In this document: positions 1 to 31,940 of the stretch, in pieces
Layout of the letters: each line of letters begins with the position of its first letter
How positions within the stretch are numbered: the first letter of the stretch is position 1
NCBI RefSeq assembly: GCF_021245725.1
Contig: NZ_JAJGSX010000001.1
Location: 1 to 64,000, forward strand
Reading direction: 5' to 3'
Length of the DNA: 64,000 nucleotides
Source: Pseudonocardia sp. TRM90224
GTDB taxonomy: Bacteria > Actinomycetota > Actinomycetes > Mycobacteriales > Pseudonocardiaceae
The notes under the pieces: generated by a model
What the model was told of the DNA's origin: nothing
What the model saw: only the letters and a program-made list of their open reading frames with translations
Database searches by the model: none
Translations under genes and position numbers: made by a program

Positions 1-195
1 GTCGACGTCGTCGGAACCGGGGTGGTCGGAGTCGTCGTCGGCACCGGCGTCGTCGGAGTCGTCGTCGGCACCGGCGTCGTCGGCGTCGTCGTCGGAACCG
101 GCGTCGTCGTCGGAACCGGCGTCGTCGTCGGCACCGGCGTCGTCGAAGTGGTCGGCACCGGCGTGGTCGGCGCAGGCGTCGACGTCGTGGTCGAC
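1..195 (-). repeat. Pro/Thr-rich tandem repeats at the left edge of the window
   Basis: The last visible codons of the giant gene encode PVPTTTP- and PTTST-type repeats from plus-strand units such as gtcgtcggcaccggc. They follow a final hydrophobic pair (about 0.2-0.5 kb) that ends in Ala-Arg-Ala-Gln-Pro. The tract looks like a wall-crossing or flexible stalk. The frame stays open at the edge, so the repeat count, the C-terminus and any further domains are unknown. Confidence 0.85.
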
Positions 196-3100
196 GGCGG
201 CGGGCTCGTCGGCTGCGCCCTCGCCGCCGGCGCGAACCACAGAGCAAGGATCGCCACACCGGCCACAACCGCGGCAACCACCAAGCCTCGCCGCACCGGC
301 GAACCGCGGATCCCACCAGCCCGCACGAACTCCCGCAACCGCCACGCACCCGCGGCCAGCACCGACCCACCGGCCAGCAGCATCAGCGCCGGCCCGAGCC
401 ACCCCCTCGAAGCGACAGCGCCGGACCCGTCATCCGCACTCGCCGAACCGGCGAGGATCACCAGCAGCGCCACCGCGGTGCCCACCAGCAGCGCCCACCG
501 GCGAACGCGAGCCGACGTCACCCAGCTCCACACGCCGGCCGCGATCAGCCGCAGCGGGTGCACGTTCGCCCGGCCGGCGGGACCGGGGCGGGTCGTCCCG
601 CCGCCGGACGGCGGCCGGCGCCCGGTGACACCCCAGATGACGGCCGCAGCTGCGCCGACGGCAGCGCCGAACGGAGGCACCGGGATGGCGGGCCGCAGCA
701 CGGCGAACCCGACCACCGCCACGACCATCGCCACCGTGAGGGCCCGGTCCGGCCCCCGCCCGCCGGGCAGGAACCACCAGCCGTCGAAGGGGCCGCCGGA
801 CAGCAGCCGCTTGGCGCCGGGGAACAGCGGCGCGCGGCCGGTCGTGCGCCGGATCGTCGCGACGGCGGCCAGTGTGACCGCACCGCCGGCGACCGCATCG
901 GCGATGAACGCCGAGTACCCGAGCGCCATCGGCACCGACCAGGTCATGACCACGCTGGTGGCCAGGGCGCCGGCCATGGCGACCAGCACCGCGATCCGCA
1001 CCTTCGACCCGACGGCCGGCCGCGCTGCCCCGCGGTCCATGCCGAGCACGACGAGCGTCGCGCCCAGCGCGAGCAGGCCGGTCACGCCGATGTGCAGCGA
1101 CGCGCCCGACCAGGCCGCCAACCCGTAGATCACGTGACCGAGCTCGGCGCCCAGCGCCCAGCGACCGACCGATTTGAGGATCTGCAGCGCGTCCTTCGCC
1201 GCGGTCTGCTTCTCCTCGTTACCGGGGTAGAGCTTCTTGACCACGGCCATGATCGCCAGGATCAGCCCGGTCGTGCCGGCCTCGCCGAAGACCGCGTTGA
1301 CGCTGATGCCGAGCACCGGCGCCCCCAGCAGGTGCTGGGACACCACAACCGCGAGCGAGCCGAAGGCGAGGAACGCGCCGACCGTGACCAGGAAGCTCAT
1401 GGCGTTGCGGGTGAGGAAGTCCTCCTGCTGCTTGCCGGCGGCGCGGGCCTTGCGGGTCGCGCGGTCGCCGAAGATCGCCAGGCCGAGCAGCACGAGGTCG
1501 CCGGTGACGAGGCCGTAGTTCAGGCCGAGCTGGACGATCTGGGCCGCGTTCTCCTGCTTCACGACGATGGGCCACAGGTCGTCGAAGACGCCGAGCATCG
1601 CGGCGCCGGAGATGTAGGCGACGGCGGTGACGGCGATCCGCGGGTCGCGCAGCGCCTTGGCCGGGTCACGCACCGCACCCCAGGCAGCTTTCCGGAGGCC
1701 ACCGGCCTCCGCGATCGTGCGGATCGGCACCCCGGGCTGCGACGGCACGGTCAGACCGAGCACGACCGCACCGATCACGGCTAGCCCCGCACCGGTGAGC
1801 GCCGCAACGGCCAGCCCCTGGTGCATCAGGACCGTCAGCACCACGAGCATGGTGGGCAGCAGCGCCATCTGGCCGACCCCGATCAGCGCGATCATCGTCG
1901 TCGGGTAGGACACGGCCTCGTTGCGGGCCCGCCGCATCAGGTTGCTGACATCAGCCCACGCGTCGGACTGGTCGAAGACCTTGAACCACGCCGTCGACGC
2001 CAACCCGAGCGCGAACGCCGCCGCCTGGTAGCCGAACGGGGTCGAGACGAACGCGAACGTCGAGAACGCGGCGGCCGTCAGCAGCAGCGCCGCCACCGCC
2101 CGCGCGCGACGCGGGAGGTAGTTCAGCGCCTGCGCCCACAGCACGATGCCGACCGCGTCGCCGGCCAGTGAGCGGGCGAGCAGCACCCCGTCCGCCACCC
2201 CGGCAGCACCCTCGGCGAACACCCGCGGTGCGTAGAGCGCGCCGAGGTTGATCGCCGTCCCGTACGCCACCGCCAGCAGGTAGGAGACCCGGTGGCCGGC
2301 GGTGTACTGCTCCCGCGGGCCGACCCCCGTGGCGCTGTCGACGGCCGCACCGAGCTTGGCCGGGCCGGCCCCGGCGGCCGCCGCCTCGTCACGGGCAGCC
2401 GCAACCGCCAGCTCGAGAGCGCGGCGGGCAGCCGCAACCGCACGCGCCACCTCGGCCAGCTCGGCCTCGGTCGCGTTCCCGGCGAAGAGCAGCTCCGCCT
2501 GCTCCTTCTCGACCTTCGTCAGCGCGACCAGCGGCTCCAGGATCTGGCGCACCGCCTGCCGCACTGCCTGCCGCACCGCGCGGCCGCCGCCACGACCGGT
2601 CGCGAAGGCCAGCACGATCCCACGCAGGACGGCCTGCAGCGCGCGGGCCTGGTCGGCCAGCGGCACGCCTGCGGCACCCACCAACCCGACGAGGGCAGCC
2701 GGGTTGCGCAGCAACGCCTCGACGGCCGCCGGCGGGGCGCGGGCCAGCAGCGCTCCGAGGATCCCATCGAGCCGGAACCTGCCCTCGCCCGCCGCGTCGA
2801 GCATGCCGGCGGCGGCAAGGGCGGTCAGGTGGCCGCCGATCTCCGCCTCTGCCCGGGAACGGCCGAGCCCGTGCGCGCGCAGCTGCGCGACCAGCGCCAC
2901 CATCCAGGCCGGCGACCCGGCCGGGAGACCGGAGCGGACGACCGTGGCGACCGACGCCGCGGTCACGGTGCCGGCGCCGCGCAGCAGGAGCCCCACCGCG
3001 AGCCGCCACACCGCCCACGCCACGGCGGCCGGCGAGCCGAGGCTCGGCAGCGCTGCGGTCTTCACCTCCTCGAACTCCACGGCGAGCTCGTCCCGCCCGG

Positions 3101-6100
3101 TTGCCGGGCCGCTCACGCGCGTGTCCGGGGCCAGCACGTCGGCGATCACGACGGCGCGGGCGAGCAGCTCCGCGCGCTCGGCTGGACCAGTGCCGGCGCC
3201 GGTGCCGAACACCGCAGCGTCGTTGCGGATCGTCGGGTTGTCGAACTGCCCGGTGGTCTCCGCGAACACCGACCGGTACCAGGCATCGAGCAGCTGCGCG
3301 AGCTCGGCGTTCGGGTTGCCGGCCAGGATCCGCTCGATCCGCAGGACCGTGGCGAAGGTGTCGCGGTCGACCGCGACCCACCGCTCGCCGCTGCTCACCC
3401 ACGCGTACACGTCGAGGGTCGCGACGCCGATCCGCCGCGCGGCCCACCGCACCAGCCCGCGCACCGGGTGCAGCACGACCGTGCCCACGACCCCGCCGCT
3501 CTCGTCCCGGACCGCGCGGGGCAGGACGACCGTCTCGCCCTTGCGGTACCCACCGCGCAGCCACCGCTCGAGGCGCCCGATCCGCCAGATGGTCACCTTC
3601 GTCGGCTTCGTCGAGGCCGTGGCGGAGCGGCGCTTGAGGACGAAGGTGACAACACCGGCCACGGCCAGCACGCCACCCGTCCCGAGCAGCACCCACACCC
3701 CGACCGACGGCCCGCCGGGCTGCCCGACCTGCGCGGTCTGCTGCACGGCCGCGCTCGCGACGCCGGTGAGCACGAGCAACAGCACGACGGTCGTCACCGC
3801 CACGACGGCGATCCGCAGGAGGGTTCGGGCGCGGGTGGGCCCGCGGATGGAACCCGCACCGTGCAGCGGGCCGGGCAGGAAGCTCGTCGCGCCCCGGCCG
3901 AGCAGGTACAGGCGGCCGCCGGCCAGCAGGACAGCCGCGGCGGCGAGCGAGGTCAGCGCCTGCGTCGTCGTCGGGGCCGCGCCCGTCATCAGCGACGGAG
4001 CCAGCCCCAGCGTCGCCACGACACCCATCAGCACTGCACCGCGCACCATCAACCGGACGGCGGGGACGGTGCCCCGGGTGGTGTTCGAAGGGGTGGGGTC
4101 GTTGCTGCCCATGGGGGTCGACGCGGAATCGGGTTGGCGCGACAGTGCTACCGCCGCCCAGACGGCCAGCCCGGCAACAACGGTCATCAGTGCCGCGACA
4201 CCGCGCCAGCCGGCCGCGTTGAACACCACCGCGGCCGCCGGTGCACCCACCATGCCGAACAGCGCGGACGTCACAACCGTCGCGGCCAGCGCCGCCGCCC
4301 CCTGCTTCCCGAGCTTGGCGTCGGCGAGCCCGTTGACCCCCAGACCGACCCCCGCGTTGGCGAGGTTGAACATGAGGGCGGCGGCCCCGATCCCCCACAC
4401 CGCAAGGCCGGCAACCGGGACGAGCGCGGTGACCAGGACGCTCAACGCGCCCGCCCCCAGCACCACCGCCATCGTCACCAGGAACTTCCCGGCGCGATCG
4501 CCGAGCAGGTCGGCCTTCTTGAACTCCGCACCCGATCGGAGCGCCTCGATGCGCCTCGCGTGGTTCTTCCGATCCGCTGGGATGAACAGCATCAGCAGCA
4601 GGAGGTTCCCGATGACGACGCCACCGTTGAACAGCACCAACAACGCGTCGTTGTACGAGCCGGTGGCGAGCAGCGCCTCCCGCCAGACGGCGTTGAACGC
4701 GTTCTGGACGAACGCCGTGAAGCCGAACACCAGCGCCGCGAGCTGCACCAGCTTGTTCCTGAGCGACACGGGGACGGATCTCAGCGAGTCCTTCGCCTTC
4801 CTGGCCATGCGCGTCACCGGATTCCCGGCCGTTTCGCTTCCGGTCCGCTCGGCGGGCGGCAGCATCGGCGACCTCGGGAGTGCAGGCGGCATCGTCAGCC
4901 ACAACAGACCCGCCCCGACAACAACCGATCCCGCCGTCGCCCAGGCGCTGAACGTCGCCGACGTCAACGCCGGAAGCGACAGCGCCCCCCACGTCAACAG
5001 CCCGGCGAGGGTCCCCACCACTGCGATCACCGAGTCGAGCCAGCGCGGCTTGTCGCCGTTGTCCCAGCGCGCCTGCGTGGTGTCGCCGACCCACCTCTTC
5101 ACGTTGCCGTTCAGCATCGGGAACGAGCTGGTCGCAACCCCGAGCAGGAACGCCGCACCGAACACCAGGACCGGAGCCCAGCCGACCACCACCGCGAAGA
5201 CGACGTACGCAGCCGCCGACAACATCGAGAACCGCAGCGCCAGGGTCCGTCCGGGCAACCGGTCCCACAACGGGCCGAACAGCAGCGAACCGGCCAAGAA
5301 CCCGGCCGACACCAGAGGCATCACCAGCCCGGCGTCCATCGGGGAACCAGCCAGCAGCGCCGCCAGGCTCGAGTAGCCGGTCGCGATCGCACCCAACGCC
5401 CAGGCGGCACCGAACCCGAACGCGAACCGGAGCGAAGCGCCGAGCTGGACCCGCCACCGCGCCACCCGCCCCGGTGGCACCCACCGATCGAACCCGACCA
5501 GCAGCTCGAACGCCGACGCCAGCAGCTCCTCCTGCCGCGCCTCGCCGGGGTTACCGTCGAGCTCCCTCAGGATCAGCAGCAACCTGGCGAACAGGAAGGT
5601 CTGCGCCTGGACCTGCGCCGGCATCCACCGCTTCCCACTGTTACGCAGGATCGGCAGCAACGCGCGGTACAACGACAGCCGCACGTCCCGCTGCTGAGAC
5701 GCCTGCACGCCCGCCCCAGCGCCCAGGATCCGCGCGCTCAACTCGACCAGCGCAGACTCCAACTGGGCCGCATTCCGCGGCGGTGACCGCGCCGAACCGG
5801 CGCCCACCGACCGCGCCCGCAACGACCGCACCATGAGCACGACCGTGACGGTGCCTGCCACGGCAAGCAGACCGCCCGTCCCGAGCAGCACCCACACCCC
5901 GAGGGACGGCCCGCCGGGCTGGGCGATCGGTGTGGTCTGCAGCGTGGCCGCGCTCGCCATGTCGACGAGCACGAACACCAGCACGATGGCGGTCACCGCC
6001 ACGACGGCGATCCGCAGGTGGGTCCGGGCGCGGGTGGGCCCGCGGATGGAACCCGCACCGTGCAGCGGGCCGGGCAGGAAGCTCGTCGCGCCCCGGCCGA

Positions 6101-27100: not shown

Positions 27101-30100
27101 TCGTCGAGCAGTTCGTCGACGACGTGCTGTCGCGCACCCCGGTGATGTCGCCCGACGCCGCACCCGACGTGTTCGCCGCGCCCGTGCCGGTGCAGTCGAC
27201 GCTGTTGCAGTCGACCCGCACCTTGGTGGTGCTGCCGGCGGTCAGCGCCCGGGTCGCCGGCTTCTCCGCGGTGCCCGCGCTGGCCGCCGTGAACAGTGCC
27301 GAGGTCGTGCGCTCGCTCCTCGGGGCCGGCTCGTCACCGAGCTTGGAGCCCGACTCGGCGCGGCAGTCGCCGCCGGCGGTCGTGCAGTTGGTGCTGCCGG
27401 CGGTCTCGCGGACCGCGGCGCCGGCAACCGTCTTGCCGTTGGTGCTCGTGGCGCCATTGCCCTTGCAGGTCGCTGCGGCGCAGTTGACCTCGACCGCCGC
27501 GCCGCCCTCGCCGGAACCCTCGGTGCGCCCCTCGGCCGCGTCGGCGCCACTGACCGCCTTGCAACCACCAGCGGTCACCGCGCAGTTCGCCGCACCGCCG
27601 GCGACGACCTGCCGGTTCTCGACCGTCGGGGCGGGCGTCGCGGGGGCCGCAGTTGCCGCCGCGGCCGGCTCGCCGAGCGCCGGCGCGGTCGCTGCCGTGT
27701 CACGGACGACAGGAGCGGGGGTGGTGACGGTGGCGGTTGCGTCGGCCTTCGTGTCGGTGCCGGCGGTGCCCGTGCAGTCGGCAGCCCCGCCGCCGCACGT
27801 CACCTCGGCCGTCGCCAGGGCCTCGTTGCGGCCGCCGGAGTGGGTACCGCCGTCCACCTCGACGCGCACAGCGGTGCCGCAGCCGTCGGTGGCCGCATTG
27901 CACGTGGCCGTCGCCGCGCCGGAGTGCTTGTCGGTACCGGTCACTTCGGGGCCGGTCATCGTCACCGCACGGGTCGTCGTCCCGTCGAGCGCGGCCTTCT
28001 CGGGATCGGTCTCCCCACCGCCGACGCCGTTGCCCGACGTGCGGCAGGAACCTGCCGAGGTGCGGCAGTCCGCCTCGGCACCGGACAGATCGGCCCTGCT
28101 GGACTGGGAACAATCACCTTGGCCCAGCGAGCACCACCCGTCGGCCTTGTTCTCACCCGCCGAGGCGTTGCTCCCGCAGCCCTGCTCGGCGCCGCTCAGC
28201 ACACAGGAGGCGGAGGCCTTGTTCTCACCGGATCCGGTGGACGCACCACACCCGCTGGAGACCCCGGCCAGCGCCATGCACCGGTCGGATTCCTGCTCGT
28301 GGTCGGCCGAATCGGTGACCGAACGGCACTCGACGAACGCCCCGCTCGATCCACACCCGGCGGCGGACCCGTCCTGCGGCGCCCACGTGGGCAGCCCGGC
28401 CGGACGGTCGCGCTCGGTCATCGCACGCAGCTCGTCCGTGGACTTGTAGAGCTCGCTCCGGTCCTCGTCCAGCTGCGCGGCGTTGCGGTCGTACACATCC
28501 TTCGCCAGCGTCCCGGCGGCAACCTGCTTCTCCTCGGCAGCCAGCGCGGTCTCACGGGCGGAGATGTCGCGGTGGCCGTCGACCACCTCGTCGATCAGGT
28601 CGGCGCGGTTGCTCGAAAGCTGCGCCTTGTCCGCTTCAGCCTGCGCGGAAAGTTCGTTGTGCGCGGTCTCGCGCTTGGCCAGCTCGTCGGCGGTGATCGT
28701 CCCGGCAGCAGCCTGCTTGCGGGACTCCTCCAGCTCGGTGGCGGACTTGTCGGTGTTGATCCGGCCTTCGAGCGCCTTCTCGGTCTGCTCGGCGTACCAG
28801 GACCGGTACTGCTCGGAGTCTTCGTCGCCGGCTGGTGGGCCGCGACCCGACAGCATCGACGCGAACCGGGTGGTCGGTTCGTCCGAGACGCCGGTGCAGC
28901 TCTCGGAAGCCGCGCACATCTGCCGCTTCCCCGAAGGCTCCAGGCCGGCCGGGGCGCCACCACCGGTCGGATCCGAGCCGAACCGCTTCCGCAGCTGCTC
29001 CACCGTCGCCGGGTCGCCGCCGTCCGGCAGCCGGCTCAGGATCTCGCGAGCCTGGTCGATCGCACGATCCGCGTCCTCGGCAAGCCCGGCCGCCCAGTCG
29101 GTCACCCGCTCGATCAGCTCGCCACCGGGAGTCCCGCCCAGCCACTCGGCCAGCCCGGAGCGGTCGCGCCCGCCGTCCTGCCCGGCCTCCCGCCCGGCTT
29201 CCCGTGCGGCCTCGCGCAGCCAGCTCGCCACGTCGCCGTCGAGCTGCTCACGCAACGCTCCTGCCCGCTCGGCGACGTCCGCCGCCCAGCCGTTCGCCTG
29301 CCGGACCAGCTCGGCGACCTCACCGGATCGATCCGAGCCACGGCCGCTGTCGGCTCCCCAGCCGTCGGCCTGCTCGTCCCCGATCCAGCGGGCGAGCTCG
29401 CGCCCGTCCATCCCGCCGGTACCGCCCTCTCCGAATGCACCAGCACCGAACTCACCAGCACCGCGTTCCTGCAGCCGCTCGGCCCACTCGGCGGCGCGCC
29501 GACCCATGTCGAACGCGTCGTCCGGGCCGTCGGCGCCCGTGCCGATCCGATCCGAGATGCGCTCGGCCCACTCGCCGGCCCGCTCGGCCCATTCGGCCAT
29601 GCGGTCGCCGTCCCCGTCGCGTCCGGTGAAGCTCTTCGCCCAGTCGACCACCCGGCGGGCGAGCTCCGCACCGCCGGCGCCGCCACGAGGCGCATCGGCG
29701 TCGGCGCCGCGGTCACCCGCCAGCTCCTCGATCCGCCGGGCGAGATCGGCGCCCTCACCGGTCAGCCGATCACGCAATTCCTCGGCCTGCTCGGTCAGCT
29801 CCGCACCCCGACCCTCGACCCGCTCACGCAACCGATCGGCCCACTCCGCGCCACCGGGCGACTCCCCGTCGGCACTGAACTTCCCATCGACGCTGTGCTT
29901 CCCGAGCCACTCGCCGACCCACCGCGCGAGTTCGTCGCCGCCACTTCGGTCAGCGCCGTCACCGCGGTCGCCCGCCAGCTCCTCCATCCGCCGAGCCAGA
30001 TCAGCGCCCTCACCGGTCAACCGGTCACGCAATTCCTCGGCCTGTGCGGTGAGTTCCGCAGCCCGACCCTCGACACGCTCACGCAACCGATCGGCCCACT

Positions 30101-31940
30101 CCGCACCATTGGACTGTGCTTCCGGATTATGGGCGTCCGCATTGTGTTCCCCGAGCCACGCCGCAAGCTCGTCCCCGCCACGGCGGTCAGCACTGCCGCC
30201 TTCGTCGCCCGCCAGCTCCTCGATCCGCCGGGCGAGATCAGCACCCTGTCCCGTCAGCCGATCACGCAATTCCTCGGCCTGCTCGGTGAGTTCCGCAACT
30301 CGGCCCTCGACCCGCTCGCGCAACCGATCGGCCCACTCGGCACCATCGGAATCCGGGTCACCACGGTGCTCCCCGAGCCACGCCGCGAGCTCATCGCCAC
30401 CACGGCGATCGGCGTTGTCACCGTCGTCGCCGCGATCGCCCGCCAGCTCCTCCATCCGCTGGGCGAGATCAGCGCCGTCACCGGTCAACCGGTCACGCAA
30501 TTCCTCGGCCTGTTCGGTGAGCTCGGCAGCTCGACCCTCGACCCGTTCGCGCAAGCGGTCGGCCCATTCCGCGCCGTCCGACGAATCCCCGTCCTCGTCG
30601 CGGTCACCGGCCCACCGGGAGATCTCGTCCCGGATCCGATCCGACAGATCCGATTCGACATCCGAACGCCCGCGTTCGGTGGCGGTCCGGTCGTCAGTGT
30701 TGGAGTTGGAGTCGGAGTCGGAGTCGCGTGACCCGGCATCCCGAACCCATTCGGGAAGGCGCTCGTCGATGTTGTTGCTCAGCGCGGCCCGAATTCGCTC
30801 GGCCCGATCGCCATTGGCCGAGTCAGCAGTGGCCGAGTCGTCGCCGTTCGAGTCCGAATCCTCGTCGGTGCTCGCCCAGCGGTCCGTGATCCGCTTGTCG
30901 AGCTCCGCGCGAATGCGCTCCGCGAGATCGCCGCCGCGCTCGGTTTCCTGCTCGCCGTCGCCGTAAGCCGCATCGCGCTTCCGGTCGGCGCCGTTGTCCG
31001 CGCCGTTCTCCGGGTCGTTGGCGTCGTTGTCCGCGTCGTCACGTTCGGTCGAGCGCGCCCATTCGGTCGCGTCGTCCTCCGATTCGGGCCGCTGCTTCGC
31101 TTCGACGTTCGACTGCTCGTTGTCATCGGGCTGCGAGTTGTTGTCGGCGGCCTTCGCGGAACGGTCGGAGCGCGCGCCGCGGTCCTCCCGCGGCTCGTCC
31201 GCCTTCTCGTTCCAACGCTTCTCGCTCGATTCCTCGCCGGACCCCTTGTCACCCTTGTCCGCGTTCGAGCTGTACTCGTCCGAGCGCTCATTGTTCGGGC
31301 GATCGTTGTTCGAGCTGCTGCCGTCCGAACGGTTGTCAGCGGCCGAACCGTTGTCATCCGAGCCGTTGTCGTCCGACCCGTTGTCCGAGCCGTTTTCTGG
31401 GTCGCTCTTGTAGTTCGTGTCGTCGCCCGAGTCGCCCGCACTCGAGTAGTTCTCGTTCGAACCGTTGTCGTTCGAACCTTCGTCGTTCGAGCTCGAGCCT
31501 TCCGACTCGTTCCCGTCCGACCCGTTGGACGACCCGCCGGAATCGCTTCCGCCGGAATCGCCACCTCCCGAATCGCCGCCCCCGGAATCGCCGCCCCCGG
31601 AGTCGCCGCCCCCGGAGTCGCCATCGCCGGAATCGCCGGAATCGTCCCCGCCCCCGCCGTTCCCACCGCTGCTTTCGGTGCCCGCGATCGGCATTCCGGC
31701 GGCGCGCTCCTTGCTCGCCTTCAGAATGCTTTGGGTGAACGACACGGCCGGTGCGGCCGCGGCTGCGGGAGTGGCGAGCAGTGCCGCTCCGGCCCACAGC
31801 GCGGCGACCGCAAGGGCGAGCCCGGCGGCCCACCGCAGGACTTCCAGCACAACCTCGACGGGGCGCATGCGCAGCCGTACGACGCGGACGGACACGGCAG
31901 GGCTGGCGCCCTCACCGTGTTCGACCTGGCGTCCGTACAT
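1..31940 (-). CDS. Giant SecA-motor/multi-pass membrane protein, at least 10,646 residues, C-terminus outside window
   Basis: A single minus-strand frame is open from the ATG at 31938-31940 to the left edge, with no stop. The start has an AGGGAG ribosome-binding-like sequence about 8-13 bases upstream and is followed by a basic N-terminus and a hydrophobic segment (residues 33-62). Frame checks at 31.9, 18.5, 18.0, 17.5 and 0.02 kb all give coherent protein. Order of parts: anchor; Ser/Asp/Asn/Gly-rich (about 84-324); coiled-coil repeats (about 447-750); Cys-rich (about 1170-2580); Gly/Pro-rich and helical regions; membrane cluster (about 3687-3877); SecA-like motor (about 4331-5071); multi-pass membrane repeats to the edge. 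The gene avoids TTA, CTA and TCA codons almost completely. Export of the N-terminal half and a cytosolic motor are inferences from order and hydrophobicity. Overall function is unknown; a toxin-delivery, surface-assembly or self-secretion role is possible but unproven. Confidence 0.93.
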   Translation of the reverse strand, partial: MYGRQVEHGEGASPAVSVRVVRLRMRPVEVVLEVLRWAAGLALAVAALWAGAALLATPAAAAAPAVSFTQSILKASKERAAGMPIAGTESSGGNGGGGDDSGDSGDGDSGGGDSGGGDSGGGDSGGGDSGGSDSGGSSNGSDGNESEGSSSNDEGSNDNGSNENYSSAGDSGDDTNYKSDPENGSDNGSDDNGSDDNGSAADNRSDGSSSNNDRPNNERSDEYSSNADKGDKGSGEESSEKRWNEKADEPREDRGARSDRSAKAADNNSQPDDNEQSNVEAKQRPESEDDATEWARSTERDDADNDANDPENGADNGADRKRDAAYGDGEQETERGGDLAERIRAELDKRITDRWASTDEDSDSNGDDSATADSANGDRAERIRAALSNNIDERLPEWVRDAGSRDSDSDSNSNTDDRTATERGRSDVESDLSDRIRDEISRWAGDRDEDGDSSDGAEWADRLRERVEGRAAELTEQAEELRDRLTGDGADLAQRMEELAGDRGDDGDNADRRGGDELAAWLGEHRGDPDSDGAEWADRLRERVEGRVAELTEQAEELRDRLTGQGADLARRIEELAGDEGGSADRRGGDELAAWLGEHNADAHNPEAQSNGAEWADRLRERVEGRAAELTAQAEELRDRLTGEGADLARRMEELAGDRGDGADRSGGDELARWVGEWLGKHSVDGKFSADGESPGGAEWADRLRERVEGRGAELTEQAEELRDRLTGEGADLARRIEELAGDRGADADAPRGGAGGAELARRVVDWAKSFTGRDGDGDRMAEWAERAGEWAERISDRIGTGADGPDDAFDMGRRAAEWAERLQERGAGEFGAGAFGEGGTGGMDGRELARWIGDEQADGWGADSGRGSDRSGEVAELVRQANGWAADVAERAGALREQLDGDVASWLREAAREAGREAGQDGGRDRSGLAEWLGGTPGGELIERVTDWAAGLAEDADRAIDQAREILSRLPDGGDPATVEQLRKRFGSDPTGGGAPAGLEPSGKRQMCAASESCTGVSDEPTTRFASMLSGRGPPAGDEDSEQYRSWYAEQTEKALEGRINTDKSATELEESRKQAAAGTITADELAKRETAHNELSAQAEADKAQLSSNRADLIDEVVDGHRDISARETALAAEEKQVAAGTLAKDVYDRNAAQLDEDRSELYKSTDELRAMTERDRPAGLPTWAPQDGSAAGCGSSGAFVECRSVTDSADHEQESDRCMALAGVSSGCGASTGSGENKASASCVLSGAEQGCGSNASAGENKADGWCSLGQGDCSQSSRADLSGAEADCRTSAGSCRTSGNGVGGGETDPEKAALDGTTTRAVTMTGPEVTGTDKHSGAATATCNAATDGCGTAVRVEVDGGTHSGGRNEALATAEVTCGGGAADCTGTAGTDTKADATATVTTPAPVVRDTAATAPALGEPAAAATAAPATPAPTVENRQVVAGGAANCAVTAGGCKAVSGADAAEGRTEGSGEGGAAVEVNCAAATCKGNGATSTNGKTVAGAAVRETAGSTNCTTAGGDCRAESGSKLGDEPAPRSERTTSALFTAASAGTAEKPATRALTAGSTTKVRVDCNSVDCTGTGAANTSGAASGDITGVRDSTSSTNCSTKGVGGGCDLAGETSVADRAPVSTTKKTDPAAVVAVSGPVAVSTADATIRCEGGRGCGGTATAATSARDTAVSPEARGTSASAECAVDGGDCLGESSSKASSAPDFVVTDPATGKPLAGQPLSGPTSTSSSNATISCEQACTGSVKTTSTAWDGAINAGVPRTSEATATCDGVCELKAASNATTGPGAALAFAGEDAKVNAARLPAGPSAASVAGAAMLCEGTATCSGKVTSSASATDPSVSPDARGSRSEGSCEGVSGGVCQAVTNSGASTGPDANVIVPVVAAKSTANATVSSEQTGEQTGPPAEEPVQGKQGEQPAVPPAPTAPGSSANSGAPTVQGASSWSMADATLDCASGQKCTGTARSSAAGSDGPTAVAGANGARGPPEGVSNSSGSCTGTGGCQVQTSSSAGAGQVVADIVAEQQNETADALAEQAKQAEQDAKKTAQVAARTGATAEQKKLAADAAETAKKAGEAAKQAAELAAKPVTDVPAAMSKSYAQAACAGPRCTAATTGSTSGVAGDAKTAATCTAGKGGCVAASDVTAVVERDSGQPAGAEANAPNLPGYSGSGQTTSEIQCPDKGCTGSLTGSANVVAGPAGQQARSTAEGSTRCDGTTPCQAQITAGSSAAASAPGGEPAQQFAMTNAYVSAGCDDGTESGCATRASSSSEAVGAPQVTASATATCEAAGICEAATGGFAGQFIAETNALCNGTACRTHTEAAADHAGVGGVGTNTARSVTDCVGGTDGQCAGSSRAAANETGAQVAASCAAAEGSTCTFKFSAASTSKSAAGKNSATADASCGTSGAAGAGWCGTSAFASATDGIAEAYAACAGSENAGCSYKWEVTARDSARDPSGSYANAYAHDSGTGGIGGGGGWVWAQAVAGPGFAQANIGCSDLSHCDRRYKAVSRDEASQFLPPDIGVWGGILSAWRQDTCSGTSGTGCGVSSQAIPGHPQGGVGSCFGDCSHYHGDGDSTFTPTVPPLQPVVVWVPEGGPGSGNGPGVVGPDGKLQGQIHGGEGACDAAGNCTITVKGPGNGDAGSKTTTCRAPCTVTGANGQQITVTATYGERNGNPRPTGTKDITVTNPVVIGQPATDRVVGTQEAVSYRDEQGRGYWKVVGAPGNPYRGEVYDGRSGSTIKFEPQVPNAPLPKGPVTNSGSFANPMGAPFQFTCAGGCAGKVSNPDIGHGVWTDTIKIADTNKALTGRDGFGHAANLSFKGFGEVTTAEGDVIKAAGNGIKPDGTWTTIITRNPFNNFYDFKVEGGQTGSIWLGPEGYGIEQREASHTVMLTTEQILAMKKAGIPIPIEGDLLDRAGAKLNGVHIPDLEAGTANGIEAVGSADPTKPGTITCEGDCKLTRPKGMVQPPDCPNCRIVEQVAPAGTNGQGLGGAMTNLGGTTQKWVDPFGNERQCGKIDCNVVFQFGPGGGSDCRGDQLGCTGRNVLGQTIEPVSEADAKQRQTVPSTEGVQLFPTVDAAGKITGNSGIGCRGGLGSCKSSDPTVKDLGWIGDPDESWRIVLDPTATRPAQDTQVDKELANYLGLPAGAPLPELSNAALRELQKQDPAKAKEYLDKRTPMGSLERGLSSIKVTSTLSQLDVTSQQLQQKFPQLQEALAKQRAANEGGLTATEERDLKPYLDVIDKAAAESRGFGDARAVIDGITTLSQQTLTGAREQQLGGDPTLPGRLGAPGNTPEDRKKAAEQGLNGLGFDERGKPLAPPLSPADQAKADAAQIASLSLVPRRKAINERTAAYNAEVGRLKDSKNVQLADVVRMEQELAAITAIKDGIAGVEGRLPKPVQLGTTSLQDRRNADLEFADSAGDPAMAARLRQWGGLLTEATALQEQMAASGDPRQVKLADQYKQLTGLAELNYNTIARDRGARAPTSLLDDMALPSTGRPDAYLAMRSAYFKPQYDAVTDALKIKFLDQGGLAGDPFIGRTPADRRAQFASQGAPDLVIGERLAERTLTPKDLEALSSNTIRNGIKGFAKDGAKIHELIELYVDPTTGELSGMPIQRVTNTDGSERFFAPDGSYFNNKWDFRVQNDLFREDTRLLGAADWSKTAAGEIRLENVSGKYVSGWDKAKGWVFTGLLVVGTGALIIGSGGTAAPIIGGVLLAGGIAGSSIDAYNTLSARSAHGQSNDIFESPAARGAVFTLVGNGLSVVTLGAAGIGAKLASGAAKMAAAGNALGATSRFTMASRFATTANIVNVPAMGTFAVATVDTINQTVDRWHDMKTGEKIEAVGGIALNIAMLVGPTILKNRMNAKNAGMGPPPGGPPPPPQGGPQGPTVGGGGAGGGGGNPVPAQPPARPPAGQGGGGTGGGGGTGTGASSGAGGKPSGNGTGGQGAGQPETTLPAGTTDTPLGMGDERTGPSTGRGTDDVVGAGTVRVGATETGTTVPASGTQRAVGAGDGQPAAAPTDRQVSVTGQPAPAGTGRAVKPVVEEPGTPSRSQTSAPVPSELAPVARPTTNDPTAAPITGQPGAGRPGTGPRLRVVEPLPTDGQPGTAPVRTGAAPEVAAPTLRVVPEQGGAPTTAVDGVPVPARPGEGVPARTEPLTAADVHTVMDGKPTRDAQAVANELGVTVDELAATMAANPEEFAQFNVVTDTWNGLESRRLTYQRPDGELGMVAAHDGERGTSTPQENGEGAAAAAAGRDEMAALFDELGVDGLGLDGKPLDEAGGSAAGTTKSGGLDGPQVRATDGTGDPAAPTTPVSPAVPASPPSTPAPTPSASTGGFWSRIFSRGSRETREAGQWTSEIAEARSVGERLRAEAFHEDGTPFTRAEEIAQETAERRAQIARVHEAGGTTEAHKAELGQSVGLALESIRREFPGREEGTRAVLTDAQLRAAFELFNKRNGSKGTVVELPPGEGKTFVDVVWGRWASLRSMEPDGTVQPGRGVHHVAPDGELARASAEVGGRIAQRQGEEVGLLRDVSDPEYSVADQNAQYRMSETYGAENPFVFDGIHDRQILAARERVAADAKAEQKSAKFAERNGLEPQPWPKPGEEGSRLSPEDVELAAQQLVQEGRDAVNVDEADSPFVDSPSPFISSRPDQALVRRDETYYAANDIAENMVRGQHYSKFLGRVKLSAAGRRLVAEDTRGATQYQVQQALSISGYVKGKHYLVEGDTVVLLSRITGHQLPGQSLRDGKQQAIQAREGVTIKPEQNTDLTLTRQQHYARYGSVSGMTGTARSGLPTEKGATDYTVKSFGLYGLDVATVPGAHGSKGPTKVLYYASDGAELAATAEMVAQSHREGRPVLAISGSIAETTALANLLRDEYGISYQTVTASADDMMIRPETVGEAGRVGAVTLADLTAGRGTDIKLGGSYDGETVIVLAADRQAAVDAGGLGVVRTMSMSSRIGGQHDGRAGRQGDPGDAVATASLTGELSMKFGDPKVRAQLLAKYEGATKSIDGDPVVEKYFLDAQRNSEKNQFETLKRVLANPTKSDTVVVQTGRAGPRIGDGGGSTTGPAATQVRDAADVVHALNERIAQVRAQIAGALPGAARTAAYTTLAETSQQLGTALADYLAAVGATGPPSAETVAATDLAAVTGELGDVPTLRPTTPAHEAGLTGGNVRTVVSLAAGGRFGEAAAELRRLAGAGAALVDDNGAWPGGGLVRMTAMSAASALERLAAAQDAGVDGDTDRVRFHAAIGALVGVLNALPVDAAVSLEPTEEQVAEHREEAAAYWADRAAMLNEMVTDAEENNTRSPEELAALRALAEDSEIQAELHAEQVAPEEQADDPAATVVEQTEKRAAAVRAVRTARAAAMTALLASLSGLLAGALLDAPDQLTTGLTGISLVAGIGLANAMVKLGRLRGPPRDGQNSIFAPLMAPAPGLPMVVAAFVLATNSLHGSDPSLHVAPVIAGVVVGGLTVRGLYELYKRNGIGAGTSRTLPSGTSSAEAHATAATDEPTQNTTTQNTTTQNTTTQNTTTQNTTTQNAGETSTAGSATAATTPGDATGSAAATTTGEPGTGAPTGDAREGHGTGSNDVGGGQTTSTSATGGATAAGEPGTTTTTTTGTTTTTGTTTATATTDDAGTTVPLVQNAGAPAVPGTPGGPTTGAGEEPTDPTAPTAPAVPAVPAPVAPAPPAPKGVEPGAVAPAAGRRPGSRGPLARALGGIAGGFGFGGGIGVIFGGGSGPAFLFVGLAGAAFALVFAFPGLARARGPPLVALATAVLVLAGTIVLAMPGSSGLALAAAVAMIVSAVLGLAATLLAPARDAGDRLRSLQMNPLLSVVALLMLVPLFGPAVGLEPGAIGELVRDVLAAFGSVPPGVWLLAGVGAVLAVAGVLAVPSGRVGAPTRVVLAVAAPVVVLAAAMGLVLGWPNAVVVTLGVAGAVVVVGVSRMIGLRTVWSVAQVAVIAATAVLVVFPAVRTAVWAQVGPVLGDVVHAVSSVDSLLIGVGALWVISLGRRVLRARAWKKQVAGWADRARAMAPAGAGSAVTGLAVVHAVYELWKATGAPVGTDQVAARIVGGSGAGSPAEVGTLAAALAADVEPLLVSGDGGRSWSPSPMLISLLARGPPGVEAAFLADATFVLPKLDAAGAKASDLSRELFKAVRGLWWQYARTSGRGFRALVPLFLQPARLRELRVATAGLRTARAALRELQAKLAERASLERMQQWRTSGAWWQRQIALRRGGDIVGRLAAIDAELTERLRLLGPKLTYPADVRKLVDEVVALQVTALRAALSEAVLAGFTRKQVEAATGIASVGLVGHYFAKIFGLYSALPSEASKTFTADPEVIGRHYGQSGQWVTDWGSRLAILDPLGNVLYALFGDKLIKSMTAVMITTAAGLLGLSLVSLGGGLPGLLLSTVLIAAWIPTVGPMRARYDLYNPVLPELRAQRSAAIQTWLKTGQMVFIQLMLVGYGILGVGGTSVVAAVVVGAYAVGVFVFLVRSVNPTVETAEPPSIPESVVRSSDKVRSTKGGWARFLFFSNPLGVLLTGLPLYALGGGMVKPMVELFSSGSGGAAVWPLDLVLGAIGVSLVAAMVFLPRAIAVFTSSIWPKLEQPLTQVGKPGADRKDWTGHTRMLIAMTVLGAVMVVAPAGWLWANPALPPMLVLWVLGAVYTGWARVPSSEYAPNSSTTTLINAAKGGAFWVGVSLGNLVMSGPIGRVKDAILARAPPEVVHTLVGDAAERLFWLTVGVAVVQVVWAVGFRKYRIAPWRALEGLLPEAGAKAILEALRNAGFGDIGSMIAAFVHAPRVGKEHLHQRLMDTVVQNAQEQAEIAEVGVVHVLSPAEIKRREELAKKKLDPQQLAAVIAALRVIADDIQSGRGGRLAAWLGIVLAKVRSLPTLIRVLLVAGIPPTVMVALAGDAGAVTERTPELQQLAQSGATPGGVWLLAGVGAVLALAGVLAATGRRVGVLPRMLLAVAAPVVVLAASAGLILGWSVPVVATLGVSGSLLVVGVGRVLGLRTVWSVAQVAVIAATAVLVVFPAVRTAVWAQAGPLLGDVVNAVVTVRGALIAVGVLWAVSLGRRVLRARAWKKQVAGWADRARAMAPAGAGSVVTGLAVVHAVYALWWKATGGRPATVEQVAARIVGGSGAGSPTEVAELAAKLAADVEPLLVSGDGGVSWSPSPMLISLLARGPPGVEAAFVADATFVLPKLDAAKAETKDLSRELFKALRGLWWQHARTSGRGFRALVPLFLQPARLRELRALMGDLRTARAAIRALQEQLRERVELERLRTWQSSGTWWQRRIAARRGGDIGARLAAIDAELAERLRLLDEKLNYPTDIRKLVKDVVDRQTAALRAALSAAVLAGFSRKQAETATGIASLGVVGHYFAKIFGLYSALPSEASKTFTADPEVIGRQYGQSGQWVTDWGSRLAILDPLGNVVYALFGDKLIKKLTVVMITTAAGLIGLSLVSLGGGLLGLLLSTVLIATWIPTVGPMRARFEIYNPVVQELAAQRSAAIQTWLKTGQMVFIQLMLVGYGLIGVGGTSVIAAVVVGIYAIGVFVFLVRSVDPTVETAEPPSIPESVVRASDKVRSTKSGWVRFLFFSNPLGVLLTGLPLYALGGGMVKPMVGLFSSGAGGAAVWPLDLVLGAIGVSLVAAMVFLPRAIAVFTSSIWPKLEKPLGAIGKPRDGRKDWTGHTRMLIAMTVLGAVMVIAPAAWLWATPALSALLVLWVNGAVYTGWGRVPSSAYAPNSSTTTLINAAKGGAFWVGVSLGNLVMSGPIQRVTDAISARAPPEAVWALVGDSGQRLFWLTVGVAAVQIVWAVGFRRYRIAPWRALEGLLPEAGAKAILEALRNAGFGDIGSMIAAFVQAPRAGKEHLHQRLMDTVVQNAQEQAEIAEVGVVHVLSPAEIDRRKELAKKKLSPQQLAAVVTALSTIADDVESGRGGRLAALLGVVLAKVRSLPTLIRVLLVAAIPPAVMVGFAGEAGAVTVRTPELQQVAQAGGTPGGVWLLAGVGAVLAVAGVLAVPGRRIGVPMRVALAVAAPVVVLAASAGLILGWSVPIVVALGAAGAVLVVGVGRALGLQVVLRRGIEELRRQVGHRADSVRDWRESGSPAHRWTFVAVATFAAGMVSSGVYTAATLAPGIHGVGEGVLASATFLGFFLSLVLVAAPWMPVAPNRLGVGALWASAAAFVLFAVAPSTALLWIGAFGLGAAAGVWTLLASSAQGWLNATRAGDPGSVRRTALMVTVVWGGITVVQSGMQTLQTALLPSVGTAAAVSALLVAAAAVLLAVVAPRLPGSRAGRSVVQIEAAPWQMARHRLAQTVAVYSFLGAFTIAPFDALWRAALPASAQGIAWLLPLGLVFGGLVLVVAEQGSQIVAALRNRLSGRRGAAVGSNAVAGNLVEKAPAMFMIALAGVLFAGGFAAWFTQWVLLDPTGGIVAAAFFGEAGTTGMGMAIGAFVAVIAARGGVITPAQVGVVFGLASIAKAAGQYSGTQLGTLLYAAGGWPAVTVQLAVGSLAAVTVAVLLQRRYGAAPRTKQGGRGARVRPVVRRVAQGAAAMGVVAAMVLAPFVTTGAAPILTLVTGAVVLLAAARLYLLGRGATSFLPGPLHGAGSIRGPTRARTHLRIAVVAVTAIVLVFVLVDMASAATLQTTPIAQPGGPSLGVWVLLGTGGLLAVAGTVTVVLMVRSLRARSVGAGSARSPPRNAAQLESALVELSARILGAGAGVQASQQRDVRLSLYRALLPILRNSGKRWMPAQVQAQTFLFARLLLILRELDGNPGEARQEELLASAFELLVGFDRWVPPGRVARWRVQLGASLRFAFGFGAAWALGAIATGYSSLAALLAGSPMDAGLVMPLVSAGFLAGSLLFGPLWDRLPGRTLALRFSMLSAAAYVVFAVVVGWAPVLVFGAAFLLGVATSSFPMLNGNVKRWVGDTTQARWDNGDKPRWLDSVIAVVGTLAGLLTWGALSLPALTSATFSAWATAGSVVVGAGLLWLTMPPALPRSPMLPPAERTGSETAGNPVTRMARKAKDSLRSVPVSLRNKLVQLAALVFGFTAFVQNAFNAVWREALLATGSYNDALLVLFNGGVVIGNLLLLMLFIPADRKNHARRIEALRSGAEFKKADLLGDRAGKFLVTMAVVLGAGALSVLVTALVPVAGLAVWGIGAAALMFNLANAGVGLGVNGLADAKLGKQGAAALAATVVTSALFGMVGAPAAAVVFNAAGWRGVAALMTVVAGLAVWAAVALSRQPDSASTPMGSNDPTPSNTTRGTVPAVRLMVRGAVLMGVVATLGLAPSLMTGAAPTTTQALTSLAAAAVLLAGGRLYLLGRGATSFLPGPLHGAGSIRGPTRARTLLRIAVVAVTTVVLLLVLTGVASAAVQQTAQVGQPGGPSVGVWVLLGTGGVLAVAGVVTFVLKRRSATASTKPTKVTIWRIGRLERWLRGGYRKGETVVLPRAVRDESGGVVGTVVLHPVRGLVRWAARRIGVATLDVYAWVSSGERWVAVDRDTFATVLRIERILAGNPNAELAQLLDAWYRSVFAETTGQFDNPTIRNDAAVFGTGAGTGPAERAELLARAVVIADVLAPDTRVSGPATGRDELAVEFEEVKTAALPSLGSPAAVAWAVWRLAVGLLLRGAGTVTAASVATVVRSGLPAGSPAWMVALVAQLRAHGLGRSRAEAEIGGHLTALAAAGMLDAAGEGRFRLDGILGALLARAPPAAVEALLRNPAALVGLVGAAGVPLADQARALQAVLRGIVLAFATGRGGGRAVRQAVRQAVRQILEPLVALTKVEKEQAELLFAGNATEAELAEVARAVAAARRALELAVAAARDEAAAAGAGPAKLGAAVDSATGVGPREQYTAGHRVSYLLAVAYGTAINLGALYAPRVFAEGAAGVADGVLLARSLAGDAVGIVLWAQALNYLPRRARAVAALLLTAAAFSTFAFVSTPFGYQAAAFALGLASTAWFKVFDQSDAWADVSNLMRRARNEAVSYPTTMIALIGVGQMALLPTMLVVLTVLMHQGLAVAALTGAGLAVIGAVVLGLTVPSQPGVPIRTIAEAGGLRKAAWGAVRDPAKALRDPRIAVTAVAYISGAAMLGVFDDLWPIVVKQENAAQIVQLGLNYGLVTGDLVLLGLAIFGDRATRKARAAGKQQEDFLTRNAMSFLVTVGAFLAFGSLAVVVSQHLLGAPVLGISVNAVFGEAGTTGLILAIMAVVKKLYPGNEEKQTAAKDALQILKSVGRWALGAELGHVIYGLAAWSGASLHIGVTGLLALGATLVVLGMDRGAARPAVGSKVRIAVLVAMAGALATSVVMTWSVPMALGYSAFIADAVAGGAVTLAAVATIRRTTGRAPLFPGAKRLLSGGPFDGWWFLPGGRGPDRALTVAMVVAVVGFAVLRPAIPVPPFGAAVGAAAAVIWGVTGRRPPSGGGTTRPGPAGRANVHPLRLIAAGVWSWVTSARVRRWALLVGTAVALLVILAGSASADDGSGAVASRGWLGPALMLLAGGSVLAAGAWRLREFVRAGGIRGSPVRRGLVVAAVVAGVAILALWFAPAARAQPTSPPPSTTTSTPAPTTPVPTTSTTPVPTTTPVPTTTPVPTTTPTTPVPTTTPTTPVPTTTPTTPVPTTS
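1050..7645 (-). other. Three MFS-like multi-pass blocks in the C-terminal part of the giant protein
   Basis: Three long runs of hydrophobic helices are seen (roughly 6.25-7.65, 4.13-5.50 and 1.05-2.32 kb), separated by soluble helical sections. The middle block has a GPLWDRLPGRTLALR loop, which matches the MFS loop 2-3 signature G-x3-D-R-x-G-R. The first and third share FGEAGTTG within a helix. A segment around 5.84-6.13 kb is repeated near-identically around 3.63-3.93 kb, offset by exactly 2,199 bases (733 codons). Each block is preceded by a GVWxLLGxGxxLAVAG-type helix like the start of R1-R3. Transport activity is not claimed. Confidence 0.65.
7646..7883 (-). repeat. Partial third copy R3 of the large internal repeat
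   Basis: About 80 residues repeat the beginning of R1 and R2: the GVWLLAGVGAVLAVAGV segment, the following Ala/Val-rich helices and the GVGRALGL end. At about 7645 the sequence departs from R1 and R2 and enters a different membrane block. This marks the breakpoint of the tandem duplication, and shows that the unit boundary is a membrane-helix module that can join to other blocks. Confidence 0.8.
7884..11087 (-). repeat. Large internal repeat R2 of the giant protein (about 1,068 residues)
   Basis: The second tandem unit, closely similar to R1 along its length, including LGLRTVWSVAQVAVIAATAV, the APAGAG-containing helix, the GSRLAILDPLGN section and the block before its C-terminal boundary. 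Its start core cagcaaccacac lies at 11070, and the equivalent core of the partial third copy lies at 7866, a spacing of 3,204 bases or 1,068 codons. Both protein and DNA similarity are high, so the duplication is either recent or kept similar by gene conversion. Confidence 0.85.
11088..14285 (-). repeat. Large internal repeat R1 of the giant protein (about 1,066 residues)
   Basis: The first of two tandem units. It begins with a PGVWLLAGVGAVLA membrane segment (DNA core cagcaaccacac at 14268), continues with more hydrophobic helices, then a soluble helical section, then a multi-pass block. A conserved section with GSRLAILDPLGN and an FGDK loop lies in the second half. Spacing to the matching core of R2 is 3,198 bases, exactly 1,066 codons. 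The hydrophobic pattern resembles an MFS-like bundle, but I cannot assign a transporter family. Confidence 0.85.
15286..15360 (-). repeat. Five perfect 15-bp tandem repeats encoding Thr-Thr-Thr-Gln-Asn
   Basis: The plus-strand unit tgggtcgtcgtgttc is repeated five times exactly, with a partial sixth unit following at 15361. It encodes a Thr/Gln/Asn pentapeptide repeat in the linker between the post-SecA helical region and the first large membrane block. The surrounding linker (about 14.8-15.4 kb) is Thr-, Gly-, Ala- and Pro-rich. Identical copies at the DNA level suggest recent slippage or expansion. Confidence 0.95.
16730..18950 (-). other. SecA-type translocation ATPase domain inside the giant protein
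   Basis: Residues about 4331-5071 align by eye with the SecA motor. Walker A is PPGEGKTF (K4483 at 18492-18494). The DEAD box is DEADSPFVDSPSPF (D4645 at 18006-18008), matching SecA's DEVD plus the following conserved tract. A preprotein cross-linking-domain-like section leads into SGMTGTA (M4798 at 17547-17549). Then come TAGRGTDIKLGG near residue 4928 and DGRAGRQGDPGD near 4980, followed by a helical-scaffold start, DAQRNSEKNQFETLK. All nucleotide-binding motifs appear intact. Compared with housekeeping SecA there is an insertion of some 60 residues between Walker A and DEAD, and the C-terminal scaffold, wing and zinc finger are not recognisable. Homology is strong; substrate and activity are unknown. 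Confidence 0.9.
20310..20885 (-). other. Membrane cluster before the SecA-like motor in the giant protein
   Basis: Residues about 3687-3877 contain four or five hydrophobic stretches rich in Gly, Ala, Val and Ile, separated by short polar turns such as SIDAYNTLSA. This cluster separates the presumably exported N-terminal half from the ATPase. An odd number of membrane crossings here would put the motor in the cytosol, where ATP is available. A Gly/Pro/Thr-rich linker of nearly 300 residues follows (about 19.45-20.31 kb). Confidence 0.6.
24200..28430 (-). other. Cysteine-rich extracellular-like region of the giant protein
   Basis: Residues about 1170-2580 carry dozens of cysteines in short paired patterns such as CxG-x(n)-CxGT, spaced irregularly within Thr/Ala/Ser/Gly-rich sequence with little hydrophobic core. 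Such frequent pairing suggests many disulfides or a metal-rich repetitive surface structure outside the cell. Around 25.63-25.88 kb the pattern is broken by an Ala/Lys/Glu-rich helical stretch of roughly 80 residues. I do not recognise a named domain family. Confidence 0.7.
29690..30600 (-). repeat. Four tandem coiled-coil-like repeats of 77-85 residues in the giant protein
   Basis: The protein motif EWADRLRERVEGR, then ELTxQAEELRDRLTG, GADLAxRxEELAGD and a variable Asp/Gly-rich joint ending in WLGEH or similar, occurs four times in succession. The shared DNA core cacgcaattcctcgg lies at 29771, 30026, 30263 and 30494, giving unit lengths of 255, 237 and 231 bases. All spacings are multiples of three. 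Heptad-like spacing of Leu and Ala with many Glu/Arg pairs suggests amphipathic helices or a coiled-coil stalk. Related, more diverged helical sequence continues to about 28.5 kb. Confidence 0.85.
30968..31690 (-). repeat. Ser/Asp/Gly/Asn/Glu low-complexity region of the giant protein
   Basis: Residues about 84-324 are almost entirely Ser, Gly, Asp, Asn, Glu, Arg and Lys. They begin with GGGDS-type repeats (DNA repeat of 12 bases around 31560-31640) and pass into SDDNGS-like and charged stretches. No fold is expected; it looks like a flexible acidic spacer or wall-spanning linker after the signal segment. Its base composition is visibly less GC-rich than the rest of the gene because of the Asn, Lys and Ser codons used. 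Confidence 0.8.
31752..31940 (-). other. N-terminal signal/anchor segment of the giant protein
   Basis: The first 63 residues contain several arginines (residues 19-26), then a long hydrophobic run from about residue 33 to 62 ending in an Ala-rich stretch with Thr-Pro-Ala. This is the layout of a Sec signal peptide or an uncleaved signal anchor. The Ala-rich end could be a signal peptidase I site, but I cannot decide between cleavage and anchoring. It implies that the following Ser/Asp-rich and Cys-rich regions are outside the membrane. Confidence 0.75.

Follow-up and report, generated by a model that had tools for sequence, protein, structure and literature searches.

MARTX toxins are exported as one giant chain, from which several effectors are released by cutting. 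Comparable gatherings of domains are known from other systems. SACTE_5178 of Streptomyces sp. SirexAA-E, a giant chain of 13,652 aa, combines peptidase and toxin domains (PMC3482391), and the polyvalent proteins of phages and conjugative elements unite many unrelated enzyme domains in one chain (PMC5512222; the terms 'signal peptide', 'SecA' and 'cysteine' do not occur in the main text of that paper). In Omnitrophota and other PVC lineages, giant proteins of up to about 85,800 aa occur (cited in PMC12057145).

The DNA analysed here, a stretch of 64,000 nucleotides that opens contig C1 of Pseudonocardia sp. TRM90224 (the window), carries most of one copy of a giant gene whose relatives occur in other Pseudonocardia. 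Like MARTX toxins, these relatives are giant chains with several effectors, release by cutting being only predicted for them; unlike MARTX toxins, they are far longer, and neither RTX repeats nor a cysteine protease domain gave a match in the window protein (Pfam). With SACTE_5178 they share an actinobacterial origin, a length above 10,000 aa, several effector domains per chain and domains of ADP-ribosyltransferase types (PMC3482391), whereas the payloads of the other Pseudonocardia copies, compared with the published description of SACTE_5178, consist mostly of housekeeping-type enzymes, regulators and membrane proteins placed behind a conserved stalk. Like polyvalent proteins, they unite unrelated enzyme domains in one chain, including GGDEF, GNAT and ADP-ribosyltransferase types (PMC5512222); unlike them, they begin with a signal-like segment, continue with a cysteine-rich stalk and carry a payload that has hardly any cysteine. 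A scan of four neighbouring frames revealed no phage or conjugation gene, one of the four matching nothing. The DEAD and P-loop ATPase parts and their motifs recall the SecA preprotein translocase, from which the giants differ in that their core is part of a much longer chain, reaches only to about the beginning of the scaffold helix and is optional in the family. Finally, they resemble the giants of Omnitrophota and other PVC lineages by their extreme length, proposed surface role and membrane helices but, according to the description of the latter, these belong to other phyla and carry carbohydrate-degradation domains (PMC12057145).

The reading favoured here, to which we give a probability of about one in three, is that the giant chain would be exported whole and cut at R-[GAS]-P-P sites into effectors acting in a neighbouring cell.

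On the minus strand, the ATG at 31940 opens a frame that runs to the contig edge without any stop, and the same frame is free of stops from 32204 to base 1 (10,734 codons), whereas 122 stops would be expected from the frame's own position-specific base composition and 183 from the overall composition. The five other frames of the same DNA contain 218, 76, 8, 75 and 205 stops; the frame with 8 is the plus-strand mirror frame, in which few stops are a usual by-product of high GC3. GC by codon position in the giant frame is 0.705/0.566/0.908. The plus-strand frame of 5,606 codons found opposite the giant gene (7563-24380), which mirrors its high-GC third positions, is probably not a gene, and automated callers could pick it. 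Base 1 of the window is also base 1 of contig C1 (829,421 bases), and this contig ends inside a Thr/Pro repeat. The 3' end of the giant gene lies outside the contig and was not located, and therefore 10,646 codons is a minimum and the protein is longer. The start at ATG 31940 is supported by the relatives, which have the same N-terminal segment. Upstream of the giant gene and divergent from it, a response regulator that joins a receiver domain to a C-terminal DNA-binding domain (32970-33908, plus strand) could control it.

The frame includes two units of an internal 3.2-kb duplication (Table 1), which show 83.7% amino-acid and 85.7% nucleotide identity over 1,070 aligned codons, with a longest identical run of 100 bases. 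Differences affect 14% of bases and are most numerous at third positions (235 vs 135 and 90). With a dN of 0.103 and a dS of 0.325 (NG86), dN/dS is about 0.3, and the giant frame is therefore under protein-level selection. The original prediction of one uninterrupted minus-strand gene of at least 10,646 codons, distinct from a spurious high-GC frame and endowed with internal repeats, is borne out by these data. As regards the collapse or expansion of the repeats that it had feared, the divergence of the units makes them two distinct sequences rather than a plain assembly duplicate. That the gene would be an assembly artefact or a decaying fusion of ordinary genes is very improbable. The window does end at a contig edge within a repeat, and the copies of Pseudonocardia sp. 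CNS-004 are broken into short frames, but giant frames closed at both ends are found in genomes assembled into one, two and seven contigs, so that the family is no assembly accident, and both the dN/dS between the repeat units and the coding bias of the frames read also argue against this explanation.

Table 1. Features of the giant frame in the window, with positions given on the forward strand.
Feature	Residues (aa)	Positions	Strand	Basis or remark
Giant open frame, 3' end missing		1..31940	-	ATG to contig edge, 10,646 codons
N-terminal segment	1-64	31749..31940	-	One hydrophobic helix between a short charged stretch and an Ala-rich end; hydropathy and relatives
Charged low-complexity G/S/D/N linker	65-940	29121..31748	-	Helix-forming repeats; sequence reading, tandem repeats
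Conserved helical-looking segment	1033-1190	28371..28844	-	Starts at first RGPP
R-[GAS]-P-P site	1033	28833..28844	-	Conserved in most relatives
Cysteine-rich domain	1449-2400	24741..27596	-	Alignment of relatives; modelled part 25731-27485
R-[GAS]-P-P site	1995	25947..25958	-	R[GAS]PP in 21/24 rows
Conserved region	2430-3720	20781..24653	-	Contains last cysteines, to aa 3107
Weak DUF4781-like stretch		20406..20888	-	E 0.04; the second copy on contig C1 passes the cut-off
SecA-like ATPase core (DEAD and P-loop parts)	4419-5068	16737..18686	-	Pfam 1.3e-21, 2.3e-21, 6.6e-22
Walker A GEGKT of SecA-like core		18489..18503	-	Alignment
Variable C-terminal 'payload'	5380 to contig edge	3..15803	-	About 54 hydrophobic stretches, no cysteine
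R-[GAS]-P-P site	5429	15645..15656	-	Motif scan
R-[GAS]-P-P site	5779	14595..14606	-	Motif scan
Repeat unit 1, internal 3.2-kb duplication		11091..14300	-	Unit alignment
R-[GAS]-P-P site, repeat unit 1	6134	13530..13541	-	Motif scan
R-[GAS]-P-P site, repeat unit 1	6735	11727..11738	-	Motif scan
Repeat unit 2, internal 3.2-kb duplication		7887..11102	-	Unit alignment
R-[GAS]-P-P site, repeat unit 2	7202	10326..10337	-	Motif scan
R-[GAS]-P-P site, repeat unit 2	7803	8523..8534	-	Motif scan
Multi-membrane block A	8101-8570	6231..7640	-	Homologous to C, E 1e-15
R-[GAS]-P-P site, between blocks A and B	8718	5778..5789	-	Motif scan
Multi-membrane block B	8831-9280	4101..5450	-	Homologous to C, E 3e-11
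R-[GAS]-P-P site, between blocks B and C	9734	2730..2741	-	Motif scan
Multi-membrane block C	9871-10310	1011..2330	-	Mutual homology with A and B
Thr/Pro repeat linker, contig ends inside		3..203	-	Sequence reading, repeat search

The relatives share a common order, i.e. a hydrophobic N-terminal segment, a charged linker, a helical-looking stretch that opens with RGPP in most of them, a cysteine-rich domain and a region with the last cysteines; this N-terminal order was found in 12 giant frames. The hydrophobic segment, which occurs as two sequence types, is present in 16 of the 19 frames read. Two of the three others start at contig edges, and the third is the copy of contig C44, in which no such segment was found within aa 1-260 of the frame as called. 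In the window protein, this segment (aa 1-64) looks like a signal or anchor segment, judging from its hydropathy. Inside the charged linker, several helix-forming repeats that resemble one another and measure about 90 residues each (aa ~450-800, ~29540-30600, minus strand) are the likely source of weak apolipoprotein-type Pfam matches. The cysteine-rich domain, about 1,000 residues long in relatives, was modelled from 24 sequences as a long antiparallel beta meander (pLDDT 78.7, pTM 0.77), for which a comparison with solved structures gave no convincing match. Eight of its ten conserved cysteine pairs flank strand breaks (34/41, 93/98, 126/135, 178/184, 212/219, 381/389, 480/486 and 523/529), while the pairs 264/268 and 297/301 flank none in the model. 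The model suggests that disulfides would form between the paired cysteines of the stalk. The exported part that had been proposed for this protein thus finds support in a hydrophobic N-terminal segment common to the relatives and in the cysteine-rich domain, and export of the giant chain, as predicted from these features, is probable.

The gene had first been considered as a single odd gene; it is indeed one gene, but it belongs to a multi-copy family. A profile of the cysteine-rich region matches in 23 of 62 Pseudonocardia genomes, including that of TRM90224, often in several copies, and gives 11 match rows in TRM90224 itself. All 20 loci found with this region belong to Pseudonocardia. When the SecA-like region is used as a query, a search of 60 genomes yields the housekeeping SecA and a series of stop-free giant frames. 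The genome of P. eucalypti (DSM 45351) harbours 13 family frames of 2,186 to 58,239 codons from stop to stop, of which one is truncated where its contig ends; together they add up to 253,642 codons, i.e. about 761 kb or near 8% of this 9.6-Mb genome. Its frames of 58,239 and 40,947 codons are both closed and have a GC3 of 0.883 and 0.901, respectively. Another closed frame, of 21,886 codons, is found in the one-contig genome G034. The latter also carries two short paralogues of 3,588 and 3,038 aa (G034:C1:3814202-3824965 and 3410482-3419595) that end soon after the stalk region and whose C-terminal parts gave no Pfam match at E 0.001; both have the appearance of reduced versions with a single effector. 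In Pseudonocardia sp. CNS-004 (G030), family members on several contigs are in short broken frames, owing to decay or sequencing error.

In a sample of the taxonomic family, 8 of 297 genomes match, all of them Pseudonocardia (1 of 46 genera, with four candidates scored per genome), and in a class-wide sample the stalk model matches in 1 of 394 genomes, that of TRM90224 (about 3 candidates scored per genome). The giant family is probably rare beyond Pseudonocardia, these genome samples being shallow. In TRM90224, two more copies are apparently split inside the cysteine-rich region, between the ends of contigs C68 and C53 and the starts of contigs C29 and C31. Short-read assemblies may therefore break at stalks that resemble one another, and draft genomes may show too few copies. 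The claim that such a protein is undescribed stands in part: among the matches listed, no description of the Pseudonocardia family was found in open-licence PubMed Central papers, but relatives are already in NCBI, some of them named 'preprotein translocase subunit SecA' or 'DUF4781 domain-containing protein'.

The 86 cysteines of the window protein all lie at aa 1009-3107, the last 7,539 residues containing none. Across 17 giants, late residues include 74 cysteines in 165,166 (0.045%), and 11 further NCBI relatives have 10 in 25,908, compared with 0.90% in 289 ordinary control frames from the same loci and 0.715% in the 27 of them that have at least four membrane helices. When control proteins were bootstrapped to 6,146 residues, none of the 5,000 draws contained fewer than 22 cysteines. 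All 13 stand-alone relatives of one payload MFS domain contain cysteine, whereas the payload copy has none. The six late cysteines of the 58,239-codon chain form three close pairs; a few late cysteines of some other copies are single or unpaired. Cytosolic-type domains would presumably shed their cysteines if they had to cross an oxidising space and had no native disulfides. Exported proteins are described as excluding cysteine in Firmicutes and as having even cysteine numbers in Actinobacteria (PMC9974433). Among 28 exported-like Pseudonocardia controls, chosen by a crude prediction, cysteine amounts to 1.43%, being absent from 7, even in number in 12 and odd in 9; cysteine exclusion is therefore no general mark of export in this genus, whose exported-like proteins do contain cysteine, like the stalk of the giants themselves. 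With these controls and the published pattern (PMC9974433) considered, cysteine depletion is less clear as a proof of export. Furthermore, the housekeeping SecA of TRM90224 also lacks cysteine (0 in 909 aa), so that the motor alone says nothing and the argument rests on the payload.

The motor part of the original prediction corresponds to a SecA-like ATPase core, which matches Pfam families with E-values down to 6.6e-22 and SecA chains of the PDB down to 9.9e-37. The SecA_DEAD and SecA P-loop domains are above Pfam cut-offs and the cross-linking domain is just below. The match to the family model reaches E 1.4e-221, this copy being among the model sequences. Walker A, Walker B and motif VI of the DEAD/P-loop core are all present in the window copy. 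Across copies, Walker A reads GEGKT, SEGKT, GLGKT, GMGKS, GEGKS or GAGKT, and Walker A or motif VI is altered in several, whereas the window copy keeps both. The alignment to the housekeeping SecA of the same genome ends near the start of the scaffold helix, and no SecA wing/scaffold family was found in the window protein (Pfam, E 0.1). On this evidence, the core is not a complete stand-alone SecA with helical wing/scaffold and two-helix finger. Two NCBI relatives (P0003 and P0005) owe the name 'preprotein translocase subunit SecA' to the embedded core, and this label is misleading for the giants.

The core is found in 11 of the 19 giant frames, including the 7 giants from which the model was built. 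The eight others, two of which are short paralogues, give no match to the model; by this profile evidence, the SecA-like motor is therefore an optional unit and not a universal export engine. One copy devoid of it, on contig C37, carries an ADP-ribosyltransferase-like domain after the stalk region. The motor could nevertheless be thought to serve its own producer: staying in the cytosol, it would drive the N-terminus of its own chain out, with the C-terminal blocks lodged in the producer's membrane. A core with kept motifs in mid-chain, followed in the window copy by multi-membrane blocks, fits such a self-export machine, but the idea is highly doubtful because eight frames have no such motor, because the core extends no further than about the beginning of the scaffold helix and because a cytosolic location gives no reason for the loss of cysteine over 7,539 residues.

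The C-terminal part differs from copy to copy, the giants thus joining a conserved N-terminus to an exchangeable C-terminal part. The window payload gave only weak Pfam matches, below cut-offs. The transporter-like parts that had been announced are not established: there are many membrane helices, but no match to a transporter family was obtained with Pfam, in a profile comparison with four Pfam-matched MFS domains from relatives, or for block A among 5.8 billion proteins. A single-sequence structure model of a multi-membrane block was poor (pLDDT 49.5). Two further copies in the TRM90224 genome contain relatives of the duplicated 3.2-kb unit.

Other copies carry a broad range of Pfam domains, such as Trypsin_2/trypsin-like domains with FHA-type stretches, phosphatase types including PP2C, Abhydrolase_8 and others. 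The 21,886-residue chain includes NUDIX four times, cation efflux, GNAT and MFS, and a chain of 16,488 residues includes MFS, an alpha/beta hydrolase and an HNH repeat (Pfam). The 58,239-codon chain matches 40 Pfam families at E 0.01, the best 25 of which include MFS (4 of 89 pieces), the diguanylate cyclase domain GGDEF (1.8e-35), TauE, rhomboid, NUDIX, cation efflux, MarR and sigma-70 region 4. To the eye, the catalytic motifs of GGDEF, of rhomboid (GASG and a downstream His) and of three NUDIX boxes are intact. Several payload matches are below Pfam cut-offs, e.g. SpoIIE and PP2C_2 in two copies, and large payload stretches of other copies have no Pfam match. Some copies carry toxin-like domains, namely ADP-ribosyltransferase, DUF3990 and a weak Tle3-like stretch over an alpha/beta hydrolase.

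These last domains, together with the conserved N-terminus and variable C-terminus, recall a stalked polymorphic toxin in the strict sense, whose chain would be a scaffold and of which only the last, swapped domain would poison the target, and actinobacterial giant multi-toxin proteins of up to 13,652 aa have been described (PMC3482391). This reading is decidedly unlikely, as recognised enzymes occur all along the chains and not just at the tip, many payload domains are of non-toxin type, and no RHS, WXG, LXG or filamentous-haemagglutinin domain was found in the window protein (Pfam, E 0.1).

The abundance of hydrophobic stretches raises an objection to a delivered polyprotein, since dozens of them would be expected to stop the chain in the producer's membrane. 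The giants might be multi-enzyme surface proteins kept in the producer's envelope, with the stalk outside, the membrane blocks anchored and nothing delivered. The anchor-like N-terminal segment and the many hydrophobic stretches agree with such a location, cysteine loss could arise there too, and other bacteria are known to have giant surface proteins (PMC12863079). Retention in the envelope is nonetheless rather unlikely: several payload domains of other copies need cytosolic substrates or DNA (GGDEF, NUDIX, SecA, MarR and sigma region 4) and have kept their catalytic motifs, and the enrichment in R-[GAS]-P-P would be left unexplained.

This enrichment is marked. The 19 giants (246,292 residues) contain 201 R-[GAS]-P-P sites, against 4 in 104,537 control residues, and the 11 NCBI relatives contain 66, about 5 being expected. 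RGPP occurs 135 times in the 19 frames, against 2-31 times for each of the 11 remaining arrangements of these letters. Of the four-letter words shared by all 12 giants of an initial set, it is the most over-represented (88 vs 4.9 expected). The codons used vary, and the motif is thus a feature of the protein. In the scanned parts of six chains, none of 67 sites falls inside 37 Pfam stretches, where 5.7 would be expected (permutation P 0.0016), and in the 21,886-residue chain sites lie 39 to 63 residues after three of the NUDIX domains. R[GAS]PP is however also found within the cysteine-rich domain in 21 of 24 alignment rows, and other sites are located inside blocks that align between copies; the motif is therefore not purely a domain border. 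Cleavage at these candidate sites, as predicted from their distribution, has slightly less than an even chance.

According to the favoured reading, i.e. a delivered and cut chain, the Sec machinery would export the giant chain, the cysteine-rich beta domain would form a disulfide-stapled surface stalk, and cysteine would have been purged from the payload because it crosses an oxidising space. As the SecA, GGDEF and NUDIX domains depend on cytosolic nucleotides and have retained their catalytic motifs, they would work after entry into another cytosol, most likely that of another bacterium, the GGDEF, MarR and sigma domains being bacterial in nature. In the recipient, the SecA-like motor may assist in drawing in the chain, whose parts would be set free by cutting at R-[GAS]-P-P. 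Passage between cells appears to be the simplest way to reconcile an export-like start with cytosolic domains that have intact motifs and avoid cysteine, although delivery into other cells, predicted from sequence, is itself only tentative. Taken in its fullest form, in which Pseudonocardia-specific exported polyproteins of up to 58,000 residues, cysteine-free for their oxidising passage, would carry working enzymes, regulators, membrane proteins and often a SecA-derived motor and would be cut at dedicated R-[GAS]-P-P sites after entry, the proposal is rather unlikely.

Some database entries named SecA are something else. Late cysteine loss and R-[GAS]-P-P are two cheap sequence marks that make the questions of export and cleavage directly testable. 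If the favoured reading is true, an ordinary soil genus would possess a giant bacterial polyprotein system, which would provide a route for reprogramming a neighbouring cell and not just for killing it.
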